Shown here in pieces: positions 22,811-57,478 of a DNA stretch of 64,000 bases. The position numbers were made by a program, and so were the translations under genes. The stretch is from contig NZ_QXEV01000006.1 of NCBI RefSeq assembly GCF_003550015.1, positions 8,838 through 72,837 on the forward strand. Direction: 5' to 3'. Origin of the DNA: Anaeroplasma bactoclasticum. Lineage in GTDB: Bacteria > Bacillota_I > Bacilli_A > Acholeplasmatales > Anaeroplasmataceae. The notes under the pieces are model-generated. The model was not told where the DNA came from. It searched no databases and was given only the letters and a program-made list of their open reading frames with translations. The first letter of the stretch is position 1, and every line of letters begins with the position of its first letter.

Positions 22811-22961
22811 ATTATTTAATTACTTTTAATTTCAGGTTATAATTTAATAAATAATACGATAGAAAGAAGATGAATAATATGTCAGTAACCCTAAACCAAG
22901 GATTAAGGAATTACCAAGAGGCAGTTACACACAAAATAGGTTCTTTAAATGTCACAATTAA
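22811..22961 (+). repeat. 151-bp direct repeat, copy 1 (Rhs promoter and gene start)
   Basis: This covers the -10 TATAAT (22838-22843), the leader and the first 30 codons of the Rhs gene. It is repeated at 30182-30332 with one mismatch (22953 C versus 30324 T). Confidence 0.95.
22838..22843 (+). promoter_or_regulatory. -10 element of the Rhs gene
   Basis: TATAAT 27 bases before the start codon; the -35 region is only A/T-rich. The same sequence stands before the orphan Rhs tip (30209-30214), and a relative (29003-29008) stands before the gene at 29034. Confidence 0.55.
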
Positions 22962-25900
22962 CTTATGTCCATCTGCTTCAAATATTCTAATACAAATACC
23001 CACATTGAATACTATTGGTGTACATATTATGTCACCAATTCTTATCTATAATTATCAATTAAGAAGTAGTGGTGGAGTATTTTGGGGAACTAAATTAAAT
23101 TACTTCCCAACACTATATAAGAATGGGAATGATTTTTATATTCATAATCCAGATGGAATGATAGATCATTATTCTGGATATAATAATATGAATTTAGAAA
23201 CAGATTCTTATATATCCTATACATACCCTGGAAGAGATTTATATACATTAATCGATAAATATGGAAATAAAATAGAATATTTAGAATGTAATTATAGCCT
23301 TCCATATAGAATTCTTTATAAGAATGGTATGACTATCAATATTCAATCATCTTCAAATATTCCAATGAAAATAGATAATGTATGTGGAGATGAAATATAC
23401 TTTTCTTATAATGGGTCTTATATAACAAATTTAATCTATTATAAAAATAATGTAATAAAATATAAGACATATCTTTCATATACAAATAATAAACTATCTG
23501 GTGTAGAAACTAAAGTAGTAGATAATAATATAGAAACCACTATAGAATACTATACTATTACAGAATCAACAAACTCTTTAGTAGTAAAAGATGAAATAAT
23601 GAATTATAGTTATACTTATACACTTAATAATGATAATCAAGTAATATCTTTTTGTGATTCATATTATCCAACAAATATTACTTCATTATCCTATAGTGAT
23701 ACTATAGCAACAATTACAGATATCTTTGGTAAAACAATCAAATACTATTTCAGTAATGGCTTACCGACATTTATTTAGATTCTTTAGGATATATAAATGA
23801 AAAATGTTATGATTATATAACAAAAAGAATTAAAGAAGAAAATAGATATCCTTATCTTTATCCAAAACCTAATTTATTACAAGTAGATTTGAGTGGATTT
23901 ACAGAGTCTAACGATATAAGTAGATATTCTTACACAGAAACAGATTCAAATTATGATTTTATAACTAATAAGTATAAACTTGAAGGAATTGATGGTTATG
24001 AAATGTACACATTTCCTCTAAATGGTAAGTACTTAGATACAATACAGTTTATATTTTATACAAAGGTATTAAATGGTGGATATGAGAATAAATTTAATGC
24101 AGCCTTATCTTTAGGAGGAAAGCTTCATGCAAGAAGTATTGATTTAAATTATAATGAAGGATATCAAATGATATCAATAGAGGTTGTGGCAGATGAAACC
24201 TTTACATATGTGACACTAGCTTTTTATTTAAAAAATGTAGAAGCTATAGTTGGTAGCCTTTCTGTAATAAAGAATACAGGAGTAAAAACCTATACATATA
24301 CAGATTCTAATTTAACAAATTATGATTCTAAATATCTAAAAAGAGATATGAGTTATGATAATAATTTGGTAGAAAGTAGTATAGGTACAAATCTACCATC
24401 TACCAATTATAGATATGATGGTAGAAATAACATCATAAAAGAAGAAAAACCATATTTATTAGATATAAATAATACATATACACCATCAAATCAATTATTA
24501 ACAAAAGAATTACTAGGTAATAATTCTAATAAAATAAAAGAAGAATGTATATATGATACAAATCATTTCTTACATAAGAAAAAAGATTCATTATTAAAAG
24601 AAACTACATATACCTATGATTCTTTATTAAATATATTATCTATAACTAAAACAAATAAAACAATTACTTATGGATATAATACAAAGAATATGATTTCAAG
24701 TGTATCCATTTCAAATGGAAACACATATAGTTTTATTTATGATATAAAAGATAATTTGGATAGTATATCTATTAATAATGAAACAATAGGTTCTTATTCT
24801 TATGATTCTTATGGAAGAATAGCATCTTCCTCTTATGGATTTTCATTTATATATGATGTAGATAAGCTAACTTCTATAAAATATAATAATTCTACTATTT
24901 ATTCTATTGAATATGATACAAAGGATAGAATAGAAGAAATCAAAGATTTATATAATAATACATTAGAAGAATATATTTATGATGATGAAGATAAGTTAGA
25001 AGAAAAGAATATAAGAGACTTAAATGCAAGATATGATTATTCAGATTCTTTAGTAGGAGATATCTTATATACTTTAGGAAATCACAAGGAATATCATTCT
25101 TATAATTCTATTCAAAAATCTTTTAATACGTCAAAAGAAGCTATCTTACATCAATTTGAAAAAGAAGGATATGTAGGAGAATATAGAGAAAACTATAAGC
25201 TTAAATATAAAAATGATTTAAAACTACCTAATTACACTTTTACATTTGAAAGATTTGAAGATAATTATATTCCTTAAATAATGCCAACGGATACGTTATC
25301 ATATACATCAAGTGATAAGATAATGATAGGATTCTGGTTTAAGCAAGAAGAATCAAGTTTTTCACATTTACTGACTATAAATCAAAATAATGTATATATC
25401 GGAGTATTTCTTGACTTAATGGATCGTCTACATTTAATAATAGAATATAATAGTCATCCAGAGGATAATATAAACGTATGGATGAATAAAACAGTTATAA
25501 GCAATTCTTGGTATTATTTCGGATTAGAGTATTATGATGATGGAAATGAAAGAAAGCTTTTATTTGAATTAAATGATGAAATAATAGAAGGTCCTCTTAG
25601 TGCTCCTATAACTACACCAGTTACTTATCATATTGGATATAAATACTATGAAGGTGTAAAAACTGAGGTTTTCCAGGGAGGAATATCCAATTTAATGCTT
25701 GGTAAAGATGACGTAGATGAAGGATATATTTATTCTTATTATTTATATACAAAGAATTATATTTATAATCGCAGATTTGAAAACTTCCAAAGTAAACCAT
25801 ATGTATCTACAAATACATATATGGATTTAAATATGGATTATGATTTGATTCCACTAGAGAATAATTTAAAATCTATAAATGGAATTATGCCTGTTCGATT

Positions 25901-28037
25901 TGATGTAAATCAAGATTTAATGTATGACGCAGCTAAGAATTTTATTTATACTGACTATTATGAAAGATATTGTTATTTAGCTTATGGTAATAAGCTCGTA
26001 TATGATTTTAATTTTCGAAATAACGGAACAGTATTCTTTAAGGGCGTTATACTTGAAGATAAGGATACTCAGTATTTTTTAACAATTAAAAATGAATTTG
26101 GTTTAAGTATCTCTATTTATAGAAATCAGAATAAGCATATTATATTAAAGTATGATTATTATACGTTTGATACAGGGTATATCCAAAGTCTAGGTTCTTT
26201 TACAATGGGATTATCCTATAATGAGGTAGTAAATAATAATACAAGAAGTATAACCGTATTTTACAACAATAGTACATTTACACGCTCTTTACCGCTTTCG
26301 ACTTCATTTACAAATACTAAAGTATATTTAGGAACAGATAGTAATGGTAATAATGCCTTAATGGGAATGATTATGGATGTAGCATATAAAAAGGAATATG
26401 TAACATCAATTCCATCTTCTATTTCTACTTTAGAAGAATATCATAAGAACTATTATTATGATTCCTTTGGAAGAATGGAACAAAAAAGAATATTTAATAA
26501 TTCCATAGGAATATTAAGACATACTTATTCTTATAAGAATAGAAGTAGTGATAATACCTATACATCCTTACAAGTAAATAAGGAAACTATAAAGATTTTT
26601 AATGTTTATCATGAAAGAAATTATAGTCTAGATTCCTTAGGAAGAGTAACATCAATTACAGATTCAACATTTGGTAATCATAGTTATTCATATAATGCAT
26701 TGGGATATTTATCATCAGATGATAATAAATCATTAACTTATGATAATAATGGTAATATATTATCTTATGGAACAAATACATATATCTATGATAATATATC
26801 TAGATTAGTATCATATAATAATAATTCAATCACATATGATACTACTCATCCATTCTTAATGAAAACATTTAATGGTTATACTTACTTCTATCAGGGTAAG
26901 AGATTAGTAACAGCTACTAAAAATAATAAGACTATTAATTTCACCCATGATTTAGAAGGCTTAATCATAAAAAAAGAAGTTGTAGAAAATAATACTACAA
27001 CTACTACAAATTATTATTATGATAATAGAAGACTAGTAAAGGAAGTTAAAGGTAATGATGTAATTAGTTATTTCTATGACAATAATAATCAATTATATGG
27101 ATATAAAGAAAATAATACTGTATACTTCTATATAAGAGATGTATTAGGTAATATTATAGGTATTTTAAGTAAAAGTGGTGTATTAGTATCTAAATTTGAT
27201 TATGATGCCTTTGGTAACATCATAAATCAAACAGGAACAGTAATTTCTAATTTTAGATATAAAGGCTATTATTATGATACAGATTTAGAATTATATTATT
27301 TAAAATCTAGATTCTATAATCCTGTATTATTAAGATTTATTACACCAGATTCTATAGAATACCTAGATTCATCTAGTATTATTGGATTAAACCTATATGC
27401 ATATTGTGGTAATGATCCAGTGATGTATGTGGACGGAGACGGAACGTTTGCAATTACAGCTACTGCACTTTTAATTGGTGGTCTTATTGCTGGTGGTATT
27501 GGTGCAGGAATAGGTTTAGGCACTGCGATATATAAAGATTATAAAGAAGATGGGATTTTCTTTAATGGCGATTGGACTGATTATCTTGGCCGTACTCTAG
27601 GAGGTTTTGTTACAGGCTTTGGTATTGGTGTCGCAACTGTTCTTGGAGCTGGAGTAGGTGCGGCTGCTCTGGGAGGAACTACAGCTAGTTTATTTTCTTC
27701 GACCGGTCTATCACTATCTATGGGTAGTGCGGTTGGCATCGGAAGTGGATTTGCTTTTGCAACTGGTATGGCAGGATATACTACACGTGCACTAATTAGT
27801 AGAAGTGAATCGTATAGTGTTTGTAATATGTTCTTAGAGGGCGGTATGAATGCAGTAAGTGGTGCTTTATCTGTTCTCGGGGGAGCACTTGGAGGTTATG
27901 CTGGAGTTCATAATACAGTGTTTACTAGATTACTTTCACAAAAAGGTGATTTATTATATAGAATACTTATTGAAAATATGTTTACTGTAGGATTTAAAAT
28001 ATCTTTAGCTGTTTTGAAAGCATTAATTGAGGGGTAA
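22870..28037 (+). pseudogene. Rhs/YD-repeat polymorphic toxin, broken by one frameshift and one stop
   Basis: Three open segments form one ancestral gene of about 1720 codons. Segment 1 (22870-23778) starts MNNMSVTLNQ and has no signal peptide. Near 23769-23777 the frame shifts by one base; the peptide continues as LDSLGYINEKCYDY into segment 2 (to 25277). There an in-frame TAA (25275-25277) stops it, and segment 3 (25281-28037) continues in the same frame. Segment 3 begins with a concanavalin-like (LamG-type) domain, then YD repeats such as YDSFGRM, YNALGYL and YDNNGNI. The Rhs core end, RFYNPVLLRFITPDS...NLYAYCGNDP, precedes the variable tip. The tip (from about 27442, 198 residues) is Gly/Ala-rich and hydrophobic, as in membrane-inserting pretoxin regions. 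The start could also be 22879. If the breaks are real, the toxin is inactive. Confidence 0.85.
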
Positions 28038-28040
28038 ATA

Positions 28041-28463
28041 ATGAAACGTTATAGGTTTGATTCTATTATAAAAGGAACTTTTAATATGATTGGATGTATA
28101 TTATTTATTGTTCCTTCCATTTATTTTGTTTTAACGCTTTCAATTGATAAGTCATTTAATTTTCATGCACTAGTTTTAGCGGGAAGCGGTATTATAGTGA
28201 TAGTTATTGGATTTCTAACACGAATATTGTTACGAAAAACTAAATACTGTGTTAGATTTGCTGAAGGAAGTATATTTTATAGTAATAAGCATTTTTATAA
28301 TTTTAGTCTCAAATATGTTAAGTTTTATATATCTATTATTGAGCCATCTCTAGTTATTCCAAAATTATATATTAATGATGGTGCAAAAAGTTTAGTTGTT
28401 TATTTAACAAAAAAAGATGTTAAAAAATTGATTGCTGAAAATTATGAGATTAAGATCATATAA
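28041..28463 (+). CDS. Two-TM protein, candidate immunity partner of the first Rhs tip
   Basis: 140 residues, ATG 28041, three bases after the Rhs stop and behind GAGGGG. Two spans at about 12-33 and 44-64 are followed by a 75-residue soluble domain. No family is recognised. The position immediately behind an Rhs variable tip is where immunity genes lie, and a membrane location would suit a membrane-active tip; this is inference from context only. Confidence 0.6.
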   Translation: MKRYRFDSIIKGTFNMIGCILFIVPSIYFVLTLSIDKSFNFHALVLAGSGIIVIVIGFLTRILLRKTKYCVRFAEGSIFYSNKHFYNFSLKYVKFYISIIEPSLVIPKLYINDGAKSLVVYLTKKDVKKLIAENYEIKII

Positions 28464-28486
28464 ACAGTAATGTTTTAGGTAATAAT

Positions 28487-28744
28487 ATGAACAATATCCA
28501 ACAACGATTAACTAATATTTTTCAAGAATATGGTATATCTAATTATGAGATTGAATAGTATCCTAAGATTTTTGGCAATATTGTTTGTTCATTTGAGTAC
28601 AAAGGGCAAAAATACAATTTTATAAATGATAGAGGAGAAATAATACTTAATCACAAATATATTGATGATATAAAGAATTATAATTCTAAAATGTTACCAA
28701 TTGACGTTTTAGAAAAAATGATTATTGAAATATTAGAAAAATAA
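28487..28744 (+). pseudogene. Small gene with in-frame TAG, possible immunity relic
   Basis: ATG 28487 opens 23 codons (MNNIQQRLTNIFQEYGISNY...) to a TAG at 28556-28558. The same frame continues for 61 more codons (YPKIFGNIVCSFEYKG...EKMIIEILEK) to TAA at 28742-28744. The two halves read as one soluble protein of about 85 residues. Small soluble proteins behind Rhs tips are often extra immunity genes. Either a pseudogene or a sequencing error; no family recognised. Confidence 0.6.
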
Positions 28745-28754
28745 CAATTGTATT

Positions 28755-28792
28755 AAGGTATAGGAAAAGGAAATTTTTTTATACCTTTTTTC
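28755..28792 (+). terminator. Terminator closing the first Rhs unit
   Basis: Stem AAGGTATA/TATACCTT with a 17-base loop, followed by TTTTTTC. The rest of 28793-28990 is A/T-rich with nothing recognisable. Confidence 0.65.
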
Positions 28793-29002
28793 TTTGGTTT
28801 TACATTACACTTGTATTAACTAAGGAATATAGAACGATTTCTATGTTTCTTTTTTAATATTATTTACAATTCTAATGAGTCACTAAAGTATATCATTAAT
28901 GGATTTCATGAAATATAAGTCAAGAATTGTTTTAATGATTTATTATTTCAATTTTAAGCCATAATTCATCCTCATAATCTTTTATTGCTTTCTATTTAAG
29001 GT

Positions 29003-29008
29003 TATAAT
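29003..29008 (+). promoter_or_regulatory. -10 element sharing the Rhs 5' module
   Basis: TATAAT inside AGGTTATAATTAAATAAATA, close to the Rhs AGGTTATAATTTAATAAATA; GAAAGAAGATGAAT also follows in both. Confidence 0.5.
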
Positions 29009-29033
29009 TAAATAAATACATGGTGGAAAGAAG

Positions 29034-30134
29034 ATGAATGCTATGAATGCAAGGGATTTATTTGAAAAATACAATAAAAAAAGTGATGAGAAATTAGGCT
29101 TATTATTAAAATATAATACAGATAAGTTTATTTCATATTTCAATAGATTTATAGAAAAAGAATTCATTACTATGCCAAAGGTATATCAAATGATAAATAT
29201 TCTTACGATTAGATTTATTAATATTATTGATGACCATGAATATGATGTATTTAGGGATTTCTTAACATCCTTTAATATAGAACCATGTAGTGAAAAGGAA
29301 TATTTAGATACATATGATATACTTTTAACAAGTGATGATGACTTAATGGAAAAAGTAGAGAATATGTTTAAATCCTATTTTCAGTTTTATTATGAGAGTG
29401 TAAAAAGATTAGATTTTGATTTAAATGTATTGGTAGATTTTTGTTTATTGCTTTCTATTAATTATAGCGAGGATAAAGGAAGAGGCTTCTTAGATAGTGA
29501 TACATTAAATTTCTTTGAATTTATGGTAGAAGAATTAAATGATGAATATGACTTAAATCGTTATATGATTTATGATGAAGAGGATTTAAACCAATTTGGT
29601 AAAGTATGTAAAGACTTTATCCAAATGGATGATTTCTTTATGCTAAGAACGATTACTTTAGGTCATATAGATAATTATAAATTAAAGAGATTTAATGGAG
29701 AAATTACAATTAAAAATGAATTTGGCATATTCTTTGATGATAAGGCATATAAGGTTAATGTTACTGTAGGTGTACTTAAGGAATCTGAATACACCATGAA
29801 AGACATTGAAGATTATATAGGGCAACTACCAGAAGAACTTACAAATAGAATTGCAGTAGATGGTAAAACCATTGATGAATTTACAAAAAGATATCACTAT
29901 ATTATTAATCCAGATTATATAGATGATATTGAAGTAGAAGATGAATATGTAACTGTATATTTTAATAAAGAACAAGGTTTTAAATTAGAAGAACCTGTAA
30001 GTAAAACATTCTTTGAAATAGGCCTACTTTATGTATATAATGCCTATGAGGATGATAATGGTGATTTATTCTTTGATTGTGATAAGGATAATCAAGAAAA
30101 AGCAATCCACCTATATAACAAACTACATGAATAA
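29034..30134 (+). CDS. Hypothetical acidic soluble protein inside the Rhs locus
   Basis: 366 residues; ATG 29034 or 29043. It has no signal peptide or span and is rich in Asp/Glu/Tyr/Phe. It is probably alpha-helical in the first 200 residues (for example FEFMVEELNDEYDLNRY), then mixed, with a run GEITIKNEFGIFFDDKAYKVNVTV. I recognise no family. Its promoter and leader resemble those of the Rhs gene, and it lies between the two Rhs units, so it is probably locus cargo (accessory, immunity or chaperone). It has its own terminator. Confidence 0.7.
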   Translation: MNAMNARDLFEKYNKKSDEKLGLLLKYNTDKFISYFNRFIEKEFITMPKVYQMINILTIRFINIIDDHEYDVFRDFLTSFNIEPCSEKEYLDTYDILLTSDDDLMEKVENMFKSYFQFYYESVKRLDFDLNVLVDFCLLLSINYSEDKGRGFLDSDTLNFFEFMVEELNDEYDLNRYMIYDEEDLNQFGKVCKDFIQMDDFFMLRTITLGHIDNYKLKRFNGEITIKNEFGIFFDDKAYKVNVTVGVLKESEYTMKDIEDYIGQLPEELTNRIAVDGKTIDEFTKRYHYIINPDYIDDIEVEDEYVTVYFNKEQGFKLEEPVSKTFFEIGLLYVYNAYEDDNGDLFFDCDKDNQEKAIHLYNKLHE

Positions 30135-30141
30135 TATATTT

Positions 30142-30168
30142 AATCTCCTTTATTGGAGATTTTTTATA
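30142..30168 (+). terminator. Terminator after the 366-residue protein gene
   Basis: Stem AATCTCC/GGAGATT, loop TTTATT, then TTTTTATATT. Confidence 0.85.
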
Positions 30169-30181
30169 TTTTTACTCCTCA

Positions 30182-30332
30182 ATTATTTAATTACTTTTAA
30201 TTTCAGGTTATAATTTAATAAATAATACGATAGAAAGAAGATGAATAATATGTCAGTAACCCTAAACCAAGGATTAAGGAATTACCAAGAGGCAGTTACA
30301 CACAAAATAGGTTCTTTAAATGTTACAATTAA
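30182..30332 (+). repeat. 151-bp direct repeat, copy 2 (duplicated Rhs start)
   Basis: 150 of 151 bases match 22811-22961. The identity stops abruptly at 30333, where sequence homologous to the far 3' part of the Rhs gene begins. Confidence 0.95.
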
Positions 30333-30348
30333 TCTAATAGAAAGTTAA
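30241..30348 (+). pseudogene. Truncated Rhs N-terminus (35 codons)
   Basis: ATG 30241 repeats the first codons of the long Rhs gene (MNNMSVTLNQGL...) and then runs out of frame into the tip sequence, ending IES and TAA (30346-30348). The join deletes about 4 kb of Rhs core relative to the full gene. Confidence 0.85.
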
Positions 30349-31229
30349 TAAAGGAAGTATGTGGTAACACAACAATTAGCTATTTCTATGATAATAATAA
30401 TCAATTATATGGATATAAGGAGAATAATACTGTATACTTTTATATAAGGGATATCTTAGGTAATATCATAGGAATAATGGATGATAATGGAACATTATTA
30501 TCTAAGTTTGATTATGATTCTTTCGGTAACATCATAAATCAAACTGGAACAATAATATCTAATTTTAGATATAAAGGATATTATTATGATACAGATATAG
30601 AATTATATTATCTAAAGAGTAGATTCTATAATCCTGTATTATTAAGATTTATTACACCAGATTCTATAGAATACCTAGATTCATCTAGTATTATTGGATT
30701 AAATCTATATGCATATTGTGGTAATGATCCTATAAATAGGGTAGATGAGAATGGAAACTGGTGGATTCTAGCATTTATAATCGCTGTTGCTGTAGTTGCT
30801 ACAATAAATGATGTTTGTAAACTAGTAGCTGGCAAAGTAAAAGCTACAAGTACTGGCGGCAATGTACAAATTGTAAATTCATCCGAAATTCACACTCCAT
30901 GGGTTCGGTTGGGGTACTCATTTTATTTGAATCATATAAATCCTGATACACGTGATGTCATACAAGGGACTTCGTTTGGTATGGAATTTGAATGGTTTGC
31001 TCATAATGTGGCATATACAGGATTAAGTATTTTAGAATACGTTGGTGTTGACTCAGTTTTCGGAAAAACTGTTGAAAGTTTAAAAAATGAGGCTCAAACT
31101 GTTGATTTTGGACCTACAATTTATAATGATACTCATGACTGGTTTTCGTTTGAAATGGAACGGGCATATACTGCTTCAAATCCTCTTTTTGCACTGATTG
31201 ATTTTTGGATATGGGGGTTTTGTTATTGA
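30333..31229 (+). pseudogene. Orphan Rhs C-terminal tip with a second toxin domain
   Basis: The frame opens at 30333 without a start codon; the first ATG is at 30477. Residues encoded to about 30757 match the end of the long Rhs gene closely, through RFYNPVLLRFITPDS and YAYCGNDP. From PINRVDENG on, the 157-residue tip is unrelated to the first one. It has a hydrophobic stretch (WWILAFIIAVAVVATI), then a soluble domain with EFEWFAHNVAYTGLSI and FGPTIYNDTHDWFSFEMERAY. No nuclease or other motif is recognised. This is the typical displaced orphan tip of Rhs loci, silent unless recombined onto a full core. Confidence 0.8.
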
Positions 31230-49645: not shown

Positions 49646-49702
49646 CATGTTGAGACGGTATGTTCGTTATCTTTAAAAGATATCCACCAAGAAAAGAACT
49701 AA
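49646..49702 (+). repeat. HVETV-end repeat, copy 1
   Basis: CATGTTGAGACGGTATG then coding HVETVCSLSLKDIHQEKN and TAA (49700-49702). No upstream coding region belongs to it; it reads as a transplanted 3' gene end. Confidence 0.75.
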
Positions 49703-49807
49703 GTAATTATACTAGATATAATTAAATAGAAAAGATTATTATCTGACTATGAAGATGTTACATGCAATTTATTATTTGGAAAAGTAGATTATAAAACTGT
49801 AAAAGAT

Positions 49808-49856
49808 TCTCCTAAAATCTTGATTAATCTCCTAAAATTCTATATAATTTAGGAGA
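49808..49856 (+). promoter_or_regulatory. Fic promoter with three TCTCCTAAAAT boxes
   Basis: Promoter TTGATT (49820-49825), 17 bases, TATAAT (49843-49848). Boxes TCTCCTAAAAT are at 49808-49818 and 49828-49838 (20 bp apart), and the inverted AATTTAGGAGA is at 49846-49856. They flank the -35 and cover the -10, so bound regulator would block transcription. Confidence 0.75.
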
Positions 49857-49880
49857 AAAAAGGATGTGTAGGTGAAAAAT

Positions 49881-50927
49881 ATGAGAATTTTTGATTATTC
49901 TAAAATTAAAGATAGACAATGGGATAAGGAAATTATTAATTATATTGGATTGATTCATGAATGCAAAGGTAGACAGCAATTGTATTTGGCACAAAAACCT
50001 GATGAACTTTATAGATTAGTTGAAATTGCCAAAAGACAGTCCACTGAAGCATCTAATGAAATAGAAGGAATTAGAACTACACAAGCTAGATTGAAACAAT
50101 TAATTTCAGATAAAACGACTCCTAAAAATAGAGATGAAAAGGAAATATTAGGATATAGAAATGTATTAAATATAATACATGAAAACTATGAATATATTCC
50201 TATTCGATCTAATTATATTTTGCAATTACACAAGGAACTATATTCCTTTATGGATGTTAGTTATGGTGGAAAATTCAAAAATACACCCAATGAAATTGAT
50301 GCAACATTAGAGGACGGAAGTAGAGTATGCATATTTAAACCATTAGAACCATTTGAAACACCTGATGCCATTAGGGATATATGTGATGAATATGATAAAG
50401 CTATATCTAACTATGATATTGATCCTCTTATCGTCATTCCTATTTTTATTCATGATTTTTTATGTATACATCCATTTAATGATGGTAATGGTAGAATGTC
50501 TCGTTTACTAACAACCCTTTTATTATATAGAAGTGGCTACGTAGTAGGAAAATACATCTCGTTAGAAAAAAAGATTCAAATAACTAAGAATGAGTATTAT
50601 AATGCATTAAGCTCATCATCAAAAAATTGGATGGAAGAAACAAATGATGAAACTCCATTTATAAAATATTTACTAGGTACAATATTAGCTGCATATAGAG
50701 ATTTTGAAGAAAGGGTTAATTTAGTTTCTAAGAAATTAACATCAAAAGAAATGGTTGTGAATGCAATAAATACTAAATTTGGTAAATTTACAAAATCAGA
50801 CATATTGGAATTATGCCCAGAAATTGGAAGAGCAACGGTTGAAAATGTACTAAAGGAATTAGTAGAAGATGGTGTAATTGATAGAGTTGGTTCTGGTAGA
50901 TCAACTGCGTATTTAAGAAAGAATTAA
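49881..50927 (+). CDS. Fic family protein with class II inhibitory helix and winged helix
   Basis: 348 residues. ATG 49881 is chosen because GGTG precedes it by six bases; GTG 49872 is an alternative. The N-terminal part contains SNEIEGI, fitting the (S/T)xxxE(G/N) inhibitory motif of class II Fic proteins. The Fic core has HPFNDGNGRMSR (HPFxDGNGRxxR), so AMP-transfer chemistry should be intact. The C-terminal 75 residues (TKSDILELCPEIGRATVENVLKELVEDGVIDRV) form a winged helix, likely the DNA-binding part acting on the boxes around the gene. Such proteins are usually self-regulating; the target of AMPylation is unknown. Confidence 0.88.
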   Translation: MRIFDYSKIKDRQWDKEIINYIGLIHECKGRQQLYLAQKPDELYRLVEIAKRQSTEASNEIEGIRTTQARLKQLISDKTTPKNRDEKEILGYRNVLNIIHENYEYIPIRSNYILQLHKELYSFMDVSYGGKFKNTPNEIDATLEDGSRVCIFKPLEPFETPDAIRDICDEYDKAISNYDIDPLIVIPIFIHDFLCIHPFNDGNGRMSRLLTTLLLYRSGYVVGKYISLEKKIQITKNEYYNALSSSSKNWMEETNDETPFIKYLLGTILAAYRDFEERVNLVSKKLTSKEMVVNAINTKFGKFTKSDILELCPEIGRATVENVLKELVEDGVIDRVGSGRSTAYLRKN

Positions 50928-50976
50928 TCTCCTAACAAAAAGAATTATTCTCCTAGATTGTCGAATTTTTAGGAGA
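50928..50976 (+). promoter_or_regulatory. Second set of TCTCCTA boxes downstream of the Fic gene
   Basis: TCTCCTA at 50928-50934 and 50949-50955, and inverted TAGGAGA at 50970-50976, each 21 bp apart. This mirrors the upstream set. No good promoter is visible between them. Confidence 0.65.
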
Positions 50977-51130
50977 AAGATTACAATTTACATATATTGA
51001 TGCCTTAAAAAAGTTATTTCCAAAAGCAATTGAAAACTTTCAGTATTTAATAGATATGTATGTTACAAATTTCCATATACATATTTATAAAAGTGATATC
51101 TTTTCTGTGGGTTTCAAAGGCACACGTTGA
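50963..51130 (+). pseudogene. Short coding scrap ending at HVETV copy 2
   Basis: An open stretch without a start encodes LQFTYIDALKKLFPKAIENFQYLI...IFSVGFKGTR and ends at a TGA formed by the GTTGA of the repeat core. No family recognised. The segment TTTCAAAGRC before the core is shared with copy 6. Confidence 0.35.
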
Positions 51131-51170
51131 GACGGTATGCACATTATCTTTAGGAGTGCTCCACAAATAA
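51123..51170 (+). repeat. HVETV-end repeat, copy 2
   Basis: Codes HVETVCTLSLGVLHK and TAA (51168-51170). The 25 bases ahead (TTTCTGTGGGTTTCAAAG) match those ahead of copy 6. Confidence 0.78.
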
Positions 51171-51179
51171 CAGGTATGA

Positions 51180-51274: not shown

Positions 51275-52066
51275 ATGAAAAATATAGTAGTTAAAGATAA
51301 AATAATTAATGTAACAGGTGTTAATGACATGATTATGTCTCATTAACTGATATTGCAAGATTTAAAACCGATGGTGAAACAAATCCGGTAATTGCAAATT
51401 GGATGTGAAAAGTAGATACATTAGAGTTTTTAAAATTATGGGAACAGATAAACAATATTAATTTTAAACCCACCGATTTCGAGGGGTTTAAGAGTAAACC
51501 TGGAGAAAATGCTTTTACAATTTCACAAAAAAAATGGATTGAACTAACAAATGCTATTGGTATTAGAGTCAAATCTGGAAAAAATGGTGGCACATTTGCT
51601 CATAGAGATTGCCTTGGAATTCGCAAGTTGGATTTCAGCCGAAGTTAAATTGTATATAATTAAAGAATTTCAAAGACTAAAAGTAGAAGAAAGTGAACAA
51701 CTTGAATGGCAAGGTAAGAGATTATTAACAAAAATTAACTATTTGATTCATACTGATGCAATCAAAACATATTGAATTCCAGTTGAATTGACAGAAGTTC
51801 AAAAGTCTTTTATATATGCAAGTGAAGCTGATATGCTAAATGTTGCTTTGTTTGGTATGAGAGCAAAAGAATGGGAGGATAACAATCCTAATAAGAAAGG
51901 AAATATTAGAGATTGTGCTTCAACTATAGAACTAGCAATTCTTTCTAATCTTGAATACCATAATTCATTATTAATTAAAGATGGAATTAATCAAAAAGAA
52001 AGAAGAATGAGACGGTATGTATCTTTTTTTGATGATGACTATGACGAAGAGGAAGATGAATGGTAA
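51275..52066 (+). pseudogene. KilA-N domain protein, multiply broken
   Basis: ATG 51275 starts MKNIVVKDKIINVTGVND and then shifts frame. The pieces that follow read SLTDIARFKTDGETNPVIANWM, TGA, KVDTLEFLKLWEQINNINFKP...KKWIELTNAIGI...GGTFAH, a second frameshift, IALEFASWISAEVKLYIIKEFQRLK...INYLIHTDAIKTY, TGA, and IPVELTEVQKSFIYASEADMLNVALFGMRAKEW. This is the full KilA-N plus C-terminal domain layout found in phage and mobile-element proteins. At least two frameshifts and two TGA stops show it is dead. Its 3' end contains TGAGACGGTATGT (52008-52020), the core of the HVETV repeats, and continues YVSFFDDDYDEEEDEW. Confidence 0.85.
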
Positions 52067-56931: not shown

Positions 56932-57189
56932 ATGCAAATATTACCTATTAAGGATTTAAGAGATACTAATAAAATATCCGATTTATGTAATGAGACTAAT
57001 GAACCTATATTTATAACCAAAAATGGTTATGGTGATATGGTTGTAATGAGTATTAAAACATATGAAGAAAAATTAGAAAGAATTGAAATGTATGAAGCTA
57101 TTATTGAAGGACTTCAAAATGTCAATGATGGTAAAATTAAAAATGGACCTTCTGCCATTGAGGAGTTAAAGAAGAAATATGATTTATAG
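56932..57189 (+). CDS. Type II antitoxin, Phd/YefM family
   Basis: 85 residues, ATG 56932 behind AGAAAGAAGG. The N-terminal DNA-binding part is MQILPIKDLRDTNKISDLCNETNEPIFITKNGYGDMVVMSIKTYEE, the Phd/YefM signature; the C-terminal helix binds the toxin. The gene overlaps the toxin start by 11 bases. Confidence 0.9.
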   Translation: MQILPIKDLRDTNKISDLCNETNEPIFITKNGYGDMVVMSIKTYEEKLERIEMYEAIIEGLQNVNDGKIKNGPSAIEELKKKYDL

Positions 57190-57478
57190 TTATGAGTTAA
57201 CTGACTTAGTAATAAAAGATATAGATGATACTTTAAACTATATTTCTAATAAATTATGCAATAAAAAAGCTGCGATTGACCTGATGAATAACATAGAGGC
57301 TTGCATTAATAATATATGTGCATTTCCTTTATCTTATTCAAATTGTAACTATTATTTAATTAAAGATGATTCTATTAGACATGCAGTAATTAAAAATTAT
57401 ATTCTTGTTTTTAAAATTTATGATAATAAGATAATATTTTTAAGATTTAAATACTCAAAGCAAAATAAAATTTTATAA
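57179..57478 (+). CDS. RelE/ParE superfamily toxin
   Basis: 99 residues, ATG 57179 inside the antitoxin end. It matches the RelE/ParE fold: ELTDLVIKDIDDTLNYISNKL, a helical hairpin, then IRHAVIKNYILVFKIYDNKIIFLRFKYSKQN, the usual final strands. It would block translation or gyrase when free; the sequence does not decide which. The TA pair sits between the two 97-bp repeats. Confidence 0.85.
   Translation: MIYSYELTDLVIKDIDDTLNYISNKLCNKKAAIDLMNNIEACINNICAFPLSYSNCNYYLIKDDSIRHAVIKNYILVFKIYDNKIIFLRFKYSKQNKIL

Follow-up and report, generated by a model that had tools for sequence, protein, structure and literature searches.

A putatively self-repressing class II fic gene of Anaeroplasma bactoclasticum with a candidate promoterless operator at its stop codon

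Background

Why should a single fic gene be enclosed by two sets of short repeated boxes arranged in the same way, one over its promoter and one at its stop codon? The question is raised by a locus of Anaeroplasma bactoclasticum in which the gene for a 348 residue Fic protein (49881-50927, forward strand) lies between two such arrays. All coordinates given here refer to the window, the 64,000 nucleotide stretch of contig NZ_QXEV01000006.1 (assembly GCF_003550015.1) that was analysed. A winged helix is present in many Fic proteins, but what it is for is unclear; at this locus, the domain can be tied to a definite family of DNA sites.

Two systems are of particular relevance. CccR of Yersinia pseudotuberculosis, a class II Fic protein with a C-terminal helix-turn-helix, has been measured to repress its own promoter (PMC9755527). 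LacI obstructs transcription when bound to the O3 operator, which lies close to the 3' end of the lacI gene, and the outcome is truncated mRNA and SsrA-tagged protein (PMC3711431).

Results and discussion

Arrangement of the boxes around fic

All six TCTCCTA boxes described in an earlier note on this sequence are present. Upstream of fic, direct copies start at 49808 and 49828 and the inverted copy, TAGGAGA, occupies 49850-49856, giving steps of 20 and 22 bp; the existence of this inverted box is not in doubt, but the position of 49846 previously ascribed to it is the start of the longer sequence ATTTAGGAGA. Downstream, direct copies start at 50928 and 50949 and TAGGAGA lies at 50970-50976, with steps of 21 and 21 bp. 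Each triplet spans exactly 49 bp, and the two arrays, sharing one design, are separated by 1.12 kb. Lone boxes are common enough in the window (16 observed against 10 expected), such that the unusual feature is their arrangement: the inverted pair TCTCCTA-N13..17-TAGGAGA is found at only two sites in the 2.2 Mb draft genome, one on either side of fic, where around 0.03 would be expected from base composition. Within the A. bactoclasticum genome, fic is the sole target carrying this paired site.

Boxes 1-3 of the upstream array, given here as 8 bp half-sites, cover a promoter that had not been recorded in the earlier note. This is a near-perfect sigma70 promoter (10 of 12 matches) on the forward strand at 49820-49848, identified by promoter scoring and consisting of a -35 element TTGATT (49820-49825), a 17 bp spacer and a -10 element TATAAT (49843-49848). 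A box search placed the direct box 1, TTCTCCTA, at 49807-49814, where it stops before the -35 element, and the direct box 2, ATCTCCTA, at 49827-49834, within the spacer, both on the forward strand; the inverted box 3, TAGGAGAA (49850-49857, reverse strand), also recovered by the genome pair scan, directly follows the -10 element. The array search added a fourth, weaker inverted box, TAGGTGAA, likewise absent from the earlier note, at 49869-49876 on the reverse strand, where it overlaps the likely ribosome-binding site. Together these four boxes, spaced at 20/23/19, score 42 against a maximum of 33 in shuffled sequence.

The downstream array consists of a direct ATCTCCTA (50927-50934, forward strand), the first base of which is the last base of the TAA stop codon, a direct TTCTCCTA (50948-50955, forward strand) and an inverted TAGGAGAA (50970-50977, reverse strand), and is not accompanied by -10 or -35 elements.

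A class II Fic protein with a C-terminal winged helix

The fic product, for which an alternative start at a GTG codon (49872) is possible, matches two profiles above their cut-offs, PF02661 (1.4e-15) and PF22168 (6e-8), the latter over the C-terminal 60 residues, and is predicted to combine a class II Fic AMP-transferase fold with a C-terminal winged helix. The Fic motif HPFx(D/E)GN(G/K)R is represented by HPFNDGNGR at residues 197-205 (HPFNDGNGRMSR), which is essentially invariant in 141 homologs, and the inhibitory motif (S/T)xxxE(G/N), located N-terminal to the Fic core, by SNEIEG at residues 58-63, of which the S, N, I, E and G positions are invariant in all 141. Both the catalytic and the self-inhibition motifs thus read as intact and, being essentially invariant, assign the protein by motif to class II.

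The earlier note had credited the Fic protein with a winged helix of its own, which is borne out by both the PF22168 match and an AlphaFold model (pLDDT 87), where the C-terminus has the element order of a winged helix, including a predicted recognition helix at residues 317-329 and a wing. Of the solved structures, 8uqu comes closest in fold (Z 34, 43% identity over 252 residues), although the list of structural matches is filled by the Fic core and so is of little information on the winged helix alone. This closest solved relative is a Fic family protein of Bordetella bronchiseptica, the deposited structure being of the N-terminal domain, and no paper on DNA binding by it was found in the literature searched. 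SoFic (3eqx/3zcn, and the PADLOC SoFic model) has the same build of Fic core, N-terminal inhibitory motif and C-terminal winged helix, but only around 20-22% identity to this protein in structural alignments. Two-gene toxin-antitoxin systems such as Phd-Doc and FicTA encode the antitoxin as a separate gene in the operon; by contrast, there is no separate antitoxin gene between the two arrays here, the inhibitory helix sitting inside the Fic protein.

Upstream arrays among homologous loci

The sample, drawn from genomes and viral contigs, comprised 151 distinct loci homologous to this one. Arrays were sought as four self-similar 8-mers in the order > > < <, with no sequence assumed, and compared with 60 dinucleotide shuffles of each region. 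The earlier note had proposed box spacing near Fic homologs as a check and an absence of boxes near orthologs as counting against its reading; arrays are in fact present there: 100 of 143 upstream regions contain an array scoring above all 60 shuffles, with a modal geometry of > 20 > 23 < 20 < that is common to lineages with different boxes. The half-sites differ by lineage, including TTCTCCTA, TTCTCCCA, TTCGCCTA, TTCCCTTA, TTCGTCCA, TTCTCACA and TCTGCATA as well as other types, and a second fic gene in the A. bactoclasticum genome has a type of its own, TGCATA. In a phylum-wide scan, the related pair TTCTCCCA-N-TGGGAGAA was found in just one genome among 392, at a distance of 36 bp upstream from a fic gene. 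The upstream promoter is also fixed in position relative to the boxes, its -10 element lying mostly at box 2 + 16 or 17, and has a mean of 9.06 of 12 matches.

The Fic protein as the probable reader of the boxes

Covariation between half-sites and protein was assessed over 348 columns in 103 homologs (effective number 49). The base at box position 5 follows Fic residue 321, C invariably accompanying Glu, while T occurs with Leu or Ala and A with Gly, a tie stronger than at any other of the 348 columns. Second in rank is the pairing of K305 with position 5, and sixth that of K325 with position 6. Residues 321 and 325 (codons at 50841-50843 and 50853-50855, forward strand, encoding Glu and Lys in this protein) are one turn apart on the recognition helix predicted from the AlphaFold model, which is encoded at 50829-50867 and is the part of the protein tied to box positions 5 and 6. 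When mapped on a tree of Fic-core sequences only, three changes are seen both at position 5 and at residue 321, and the two agree on all three occasions, a number of independent switches too small for a sign test, and the association between box position 6 and K325 is weaker and not clean on the same tree. Such parallel changes could in principle stem from the shared ancestry of whole loci, although the columns of the Fic core score lower.

Binding of the boxes by the Fic winged helix is the simplest reading of this covariation and of the uniqueness of the paired site in the genome, and the Fic protein itself very probably reads them. As binding is here deduced from sequence, an unrelated host regulator might bind the boxes instead, with Fic a mere passenger; this we consider very improbable, because box sequence and Fic recognition helix change together, the genome has no further paired sites and the second fic gene has different boxes of its own. 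The covariation amounts to a readable residue-to-base rule, and the changing box types could provide mutually independent repressor-operator pairs.

Fic would therefore be expected to bind the TCTCCTA half-sites through its own C-terminal winged helix. With four half-sites in the order > > < <, approximately two helical turns apart, covering a sigma70 promoter, the bound protein would shut off its own transcription, as has been shown for CccR. Repression is suggested both by the position of the boxes over the promoter and by the likeness to CccR, which has a C-terminal DNA-binding domain and widely spaced inverted sites over its own promoter in common with this protein. CccR has one inverted pair of 10 bp sites with a 26 bp spacer rather than four 8 bp half-sites at 20/23/20 over the promoter; a single pair of this kind was not found here, this being a detail of CccR that is not known to define the kind. 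Further differences are that CccR is a secreted effector, with no secretion link seen for this Fic, and that this fic, unlike CccR, has a promoterless second array after its stop codon. The self-regulating, toxin-like switch that the earlier note thought plausible is now very likely in its self-regulatory part, given the presence of the winged helix and the covariation of the boxes with its recognition helix, and we are highly confident that the winged helix both reads the boxes and represses its own gene. This fic is thus best described as a putative self-regulated class II Fic of the CccR kind, to which the promoterless stop-codon operator would be a new addition.

The downstream array as a candidate operator

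Regions downstream of 110 homologs were searched with each locus's own half-site. An array of three or four boxes of the locus's own type was found in 17, with one other locus (L097) that reached the score cut-off being excluded for having just two convincing boxes. Sixteen of these arrays start between -1 and +6 nt relative to the stop codon, and one at +17. Foreign half-sites reach such scores downstream only at L088 and, marginally, at L103; a swap control produced 9 outliers in 2200, which were traced on rerunning to L088, where there is a genuine array of another type. Such stop-codon arrays recur in homologs across several bacterial groups and phage contigs. As only around one sixth of homologs have one, the downstream array is dispensable.

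Promoter matches in the downstream arrays have a mean of 6.65 of 12, compared to 9.06 upstream and 7.11 on the control strand, and none of the 17 has a promoter above the control level when both strands are scored. This result, along with the conservation of the boxes, runs counter to the idea in the earlier note that the second set may once have driven a lost gene. According to this reading, the array would have served as promoter to a downstream gene, since lost or decayed, under the same regulator, the rhuM pseudogene being one candidate, and a broken rhuM-like gene does follow at ~51.28-52.07 kb; the intervening gap is nevertheless ~300 bp, and unrelated genes follow the other downstream arrays. 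On the basis of the scoring of both strands, the reading was rejected as scarcely credible. An mRNA hairpin was also put aside as the cause of the downstream repeats, as a stem would leave unexplained the outer boxes, the spacing of the promoter array and the match to the recognition helix.

In the clade with TTCCCTTA half-sites, pairs of boxes in downstream arrays are 98% identical and the spacers just 40%, a mark of selection on binding sites. In a genus mate (G025, L206), the last 23 codons of fic remain recognisable and are followed by a nearly identical downstream array with all three boxes intact. The lack of a promoter, the conserved boxes and this array that has outlasted its gene all point to the second array being an operator and not a decayed promoter, and we are confident in regarding it as a probable selected operator, albeit a little less so than in the case of autorepression. 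On the Fic-core tree, downstream arrays appear or disappear at least 13 times; gains and losses are indistinguishable, and the position at the stop codon could have been inherited rather than selected.

Solo and foreign arrays

Arrays also occur without fic, in a phage (L182, in the order terL-array-portal), at L197 and in the genus mates G024 and G013; that of L197 adjoins a gene whose relative in L196 has a fic. In three cases (L085, L088 and L090), an array of foreign box type lies directly beside a fic of another type, and in L092 the two arrays have their first half in common, spacer included. The solo and foreign-type arrays point to fic being gained and lost at the same sites. Together with the L092 arrays, the frequent changes on the tree and the retention in G025 of only the gene's end and downstream array, they could even indicate that the arrays are flanking direct repeats generated by duplication or re-insertion of an array-fic unit, serving gene loss and gain rather than regulation. 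This we judge to be unlikely, since neutral scars would neither hold boxes at 98% while spacers drop to 40% nor lose the promoter alone, and no credible fic remnants were found behind the downstream arrays.

In several phage contigs (L137, L139, L140, L143 and L158), fic directly precedes a gene that looks portal-like by eye, judging from the start of its protein, and the solo array of L182 adjoins such a gene as well; a conserved AAGCATCT...AGGTGCTTTT hairpin is often found between fic and portal in these contigs. A viral scan for TTCTCCCA pairs gave no count of solo arrays of that type, as the loci examined contain unrelated hairpins and no fic. L272 and other unrelated viral contigs have up to six such TTCTCCCA...TGGGAGAA hairpins, ~0.5-1.5 kb apart, with conserved flanks.

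How the second operator might act

Sequence by itself is compatible with a polymerase roadblock, looping or a decoy. As a roadblock, Fic bound behind the stop codon would halt RNA polymerase as it reaches the stop codon of fic or shortly before, and the stalled transcription would yield truncated or non-stop fic mRNA, thereby forming a second layer of negative feedback. Neither looping nor titration explains why the position at the stop codon is fixed, whereas a roadblock would. The genome contains tmRNA, as do nearly all bacteria. The roadblock is proposed tentatively, as somewhat short of probable, by analogy with LacI at O3: in each case the repressor gene has an operator at its 3' end, although the proteins belong to different families, the array here has three or four half-sites and lies within a few bases of the stop, and the effect has been measured for LacI-O3 while being proposed here.

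DNA looping, which the earlier note had raised on the grounds of there being sites at both ends, would involve Fic on the two arrays bridging the 1.1 kb between them and tightening repression of the promoter with no block to polymerase. In keeping with this, the arrays share one design, the closest relative studied by experiment functions as a dimer (PMC9755527) and loop-assisted repression is established for LacI (PMC3711431). Looping offers no reason for the second array being at the stop codon in nearly all cases, however; most homologs manage without a downstream array, and tetramers of this Fic would be hypothetical. Looping between the two ends of fic is possible, but as a replacement for the roadblock, which fits the fixed position better, we find it doubtful. 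Bridging of the arrays may instead help the roadblock, as looping does in the case of LacI.

Taken as a whole, the explanation that we moderately favour is that of a self-contained, self-repressing fic with a second, promoterless operator and a polymerase block at the stop codon. Rather more speculatively, and probably going too far, the Fic family might include a general arrangement in which a promoterless operator copy sits on the stop codon, the bound enzyme makes its own mRNA non-stop and this is cleared via tmRNA, with the arrays persisting after the gene is gone, as solo sites in phages and chromosomes at which fic genes differing in specificity are gained and lost. If the proposal is true, stop-codon arrays would be a naturally recurring example of self-regulation by a protein at the end of the gene that encodes it, for which LacI has so far been the best-known case.

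Surroundings of the locus

The fic gene and both arrays are themselves enclosed by 51 bp direct repeats on the forward strand (49646-49696 and 51123-51173; 76% identical). The sequence TTGAGACGGTATG is found at 49650, 51127, 52007, 56427 and 57545, five copies within 8 kb, one with a mismatch, with just one further one-mismatch site elsewhere in the genome. These copies enclose fic with its arrays and a small toxin-antitoxin-like pair (56932-57478), hinting that an att-like site here has repeatedly received insertions or accreted cassettes. In frame, TTGAGACGGTATG encodes HVETVCSLS, loosely like the C-terminus of rumA-type proteins, and streptococcal ICEs are known to insert at rumA (PMC4701971). 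An origin of the 51 bp repeats as the tail of the genome's own rumA genes was rejected, as the ends of these genes are only loosely similar.

The broken KilA-N/RhuM-like gene at 51276-52066 contains PADLOC PDC-S22 fragments; an intact relative is found in the genus mate G013 (L202, 170-1051), with a solo TCTCCTA array ~230 bp behind it. Elsewhere in the window, 22870-31229 contains a run of RHS/YD-repeat-like ORFs, named by eye, the C-terminal part of which is partly duplicated.
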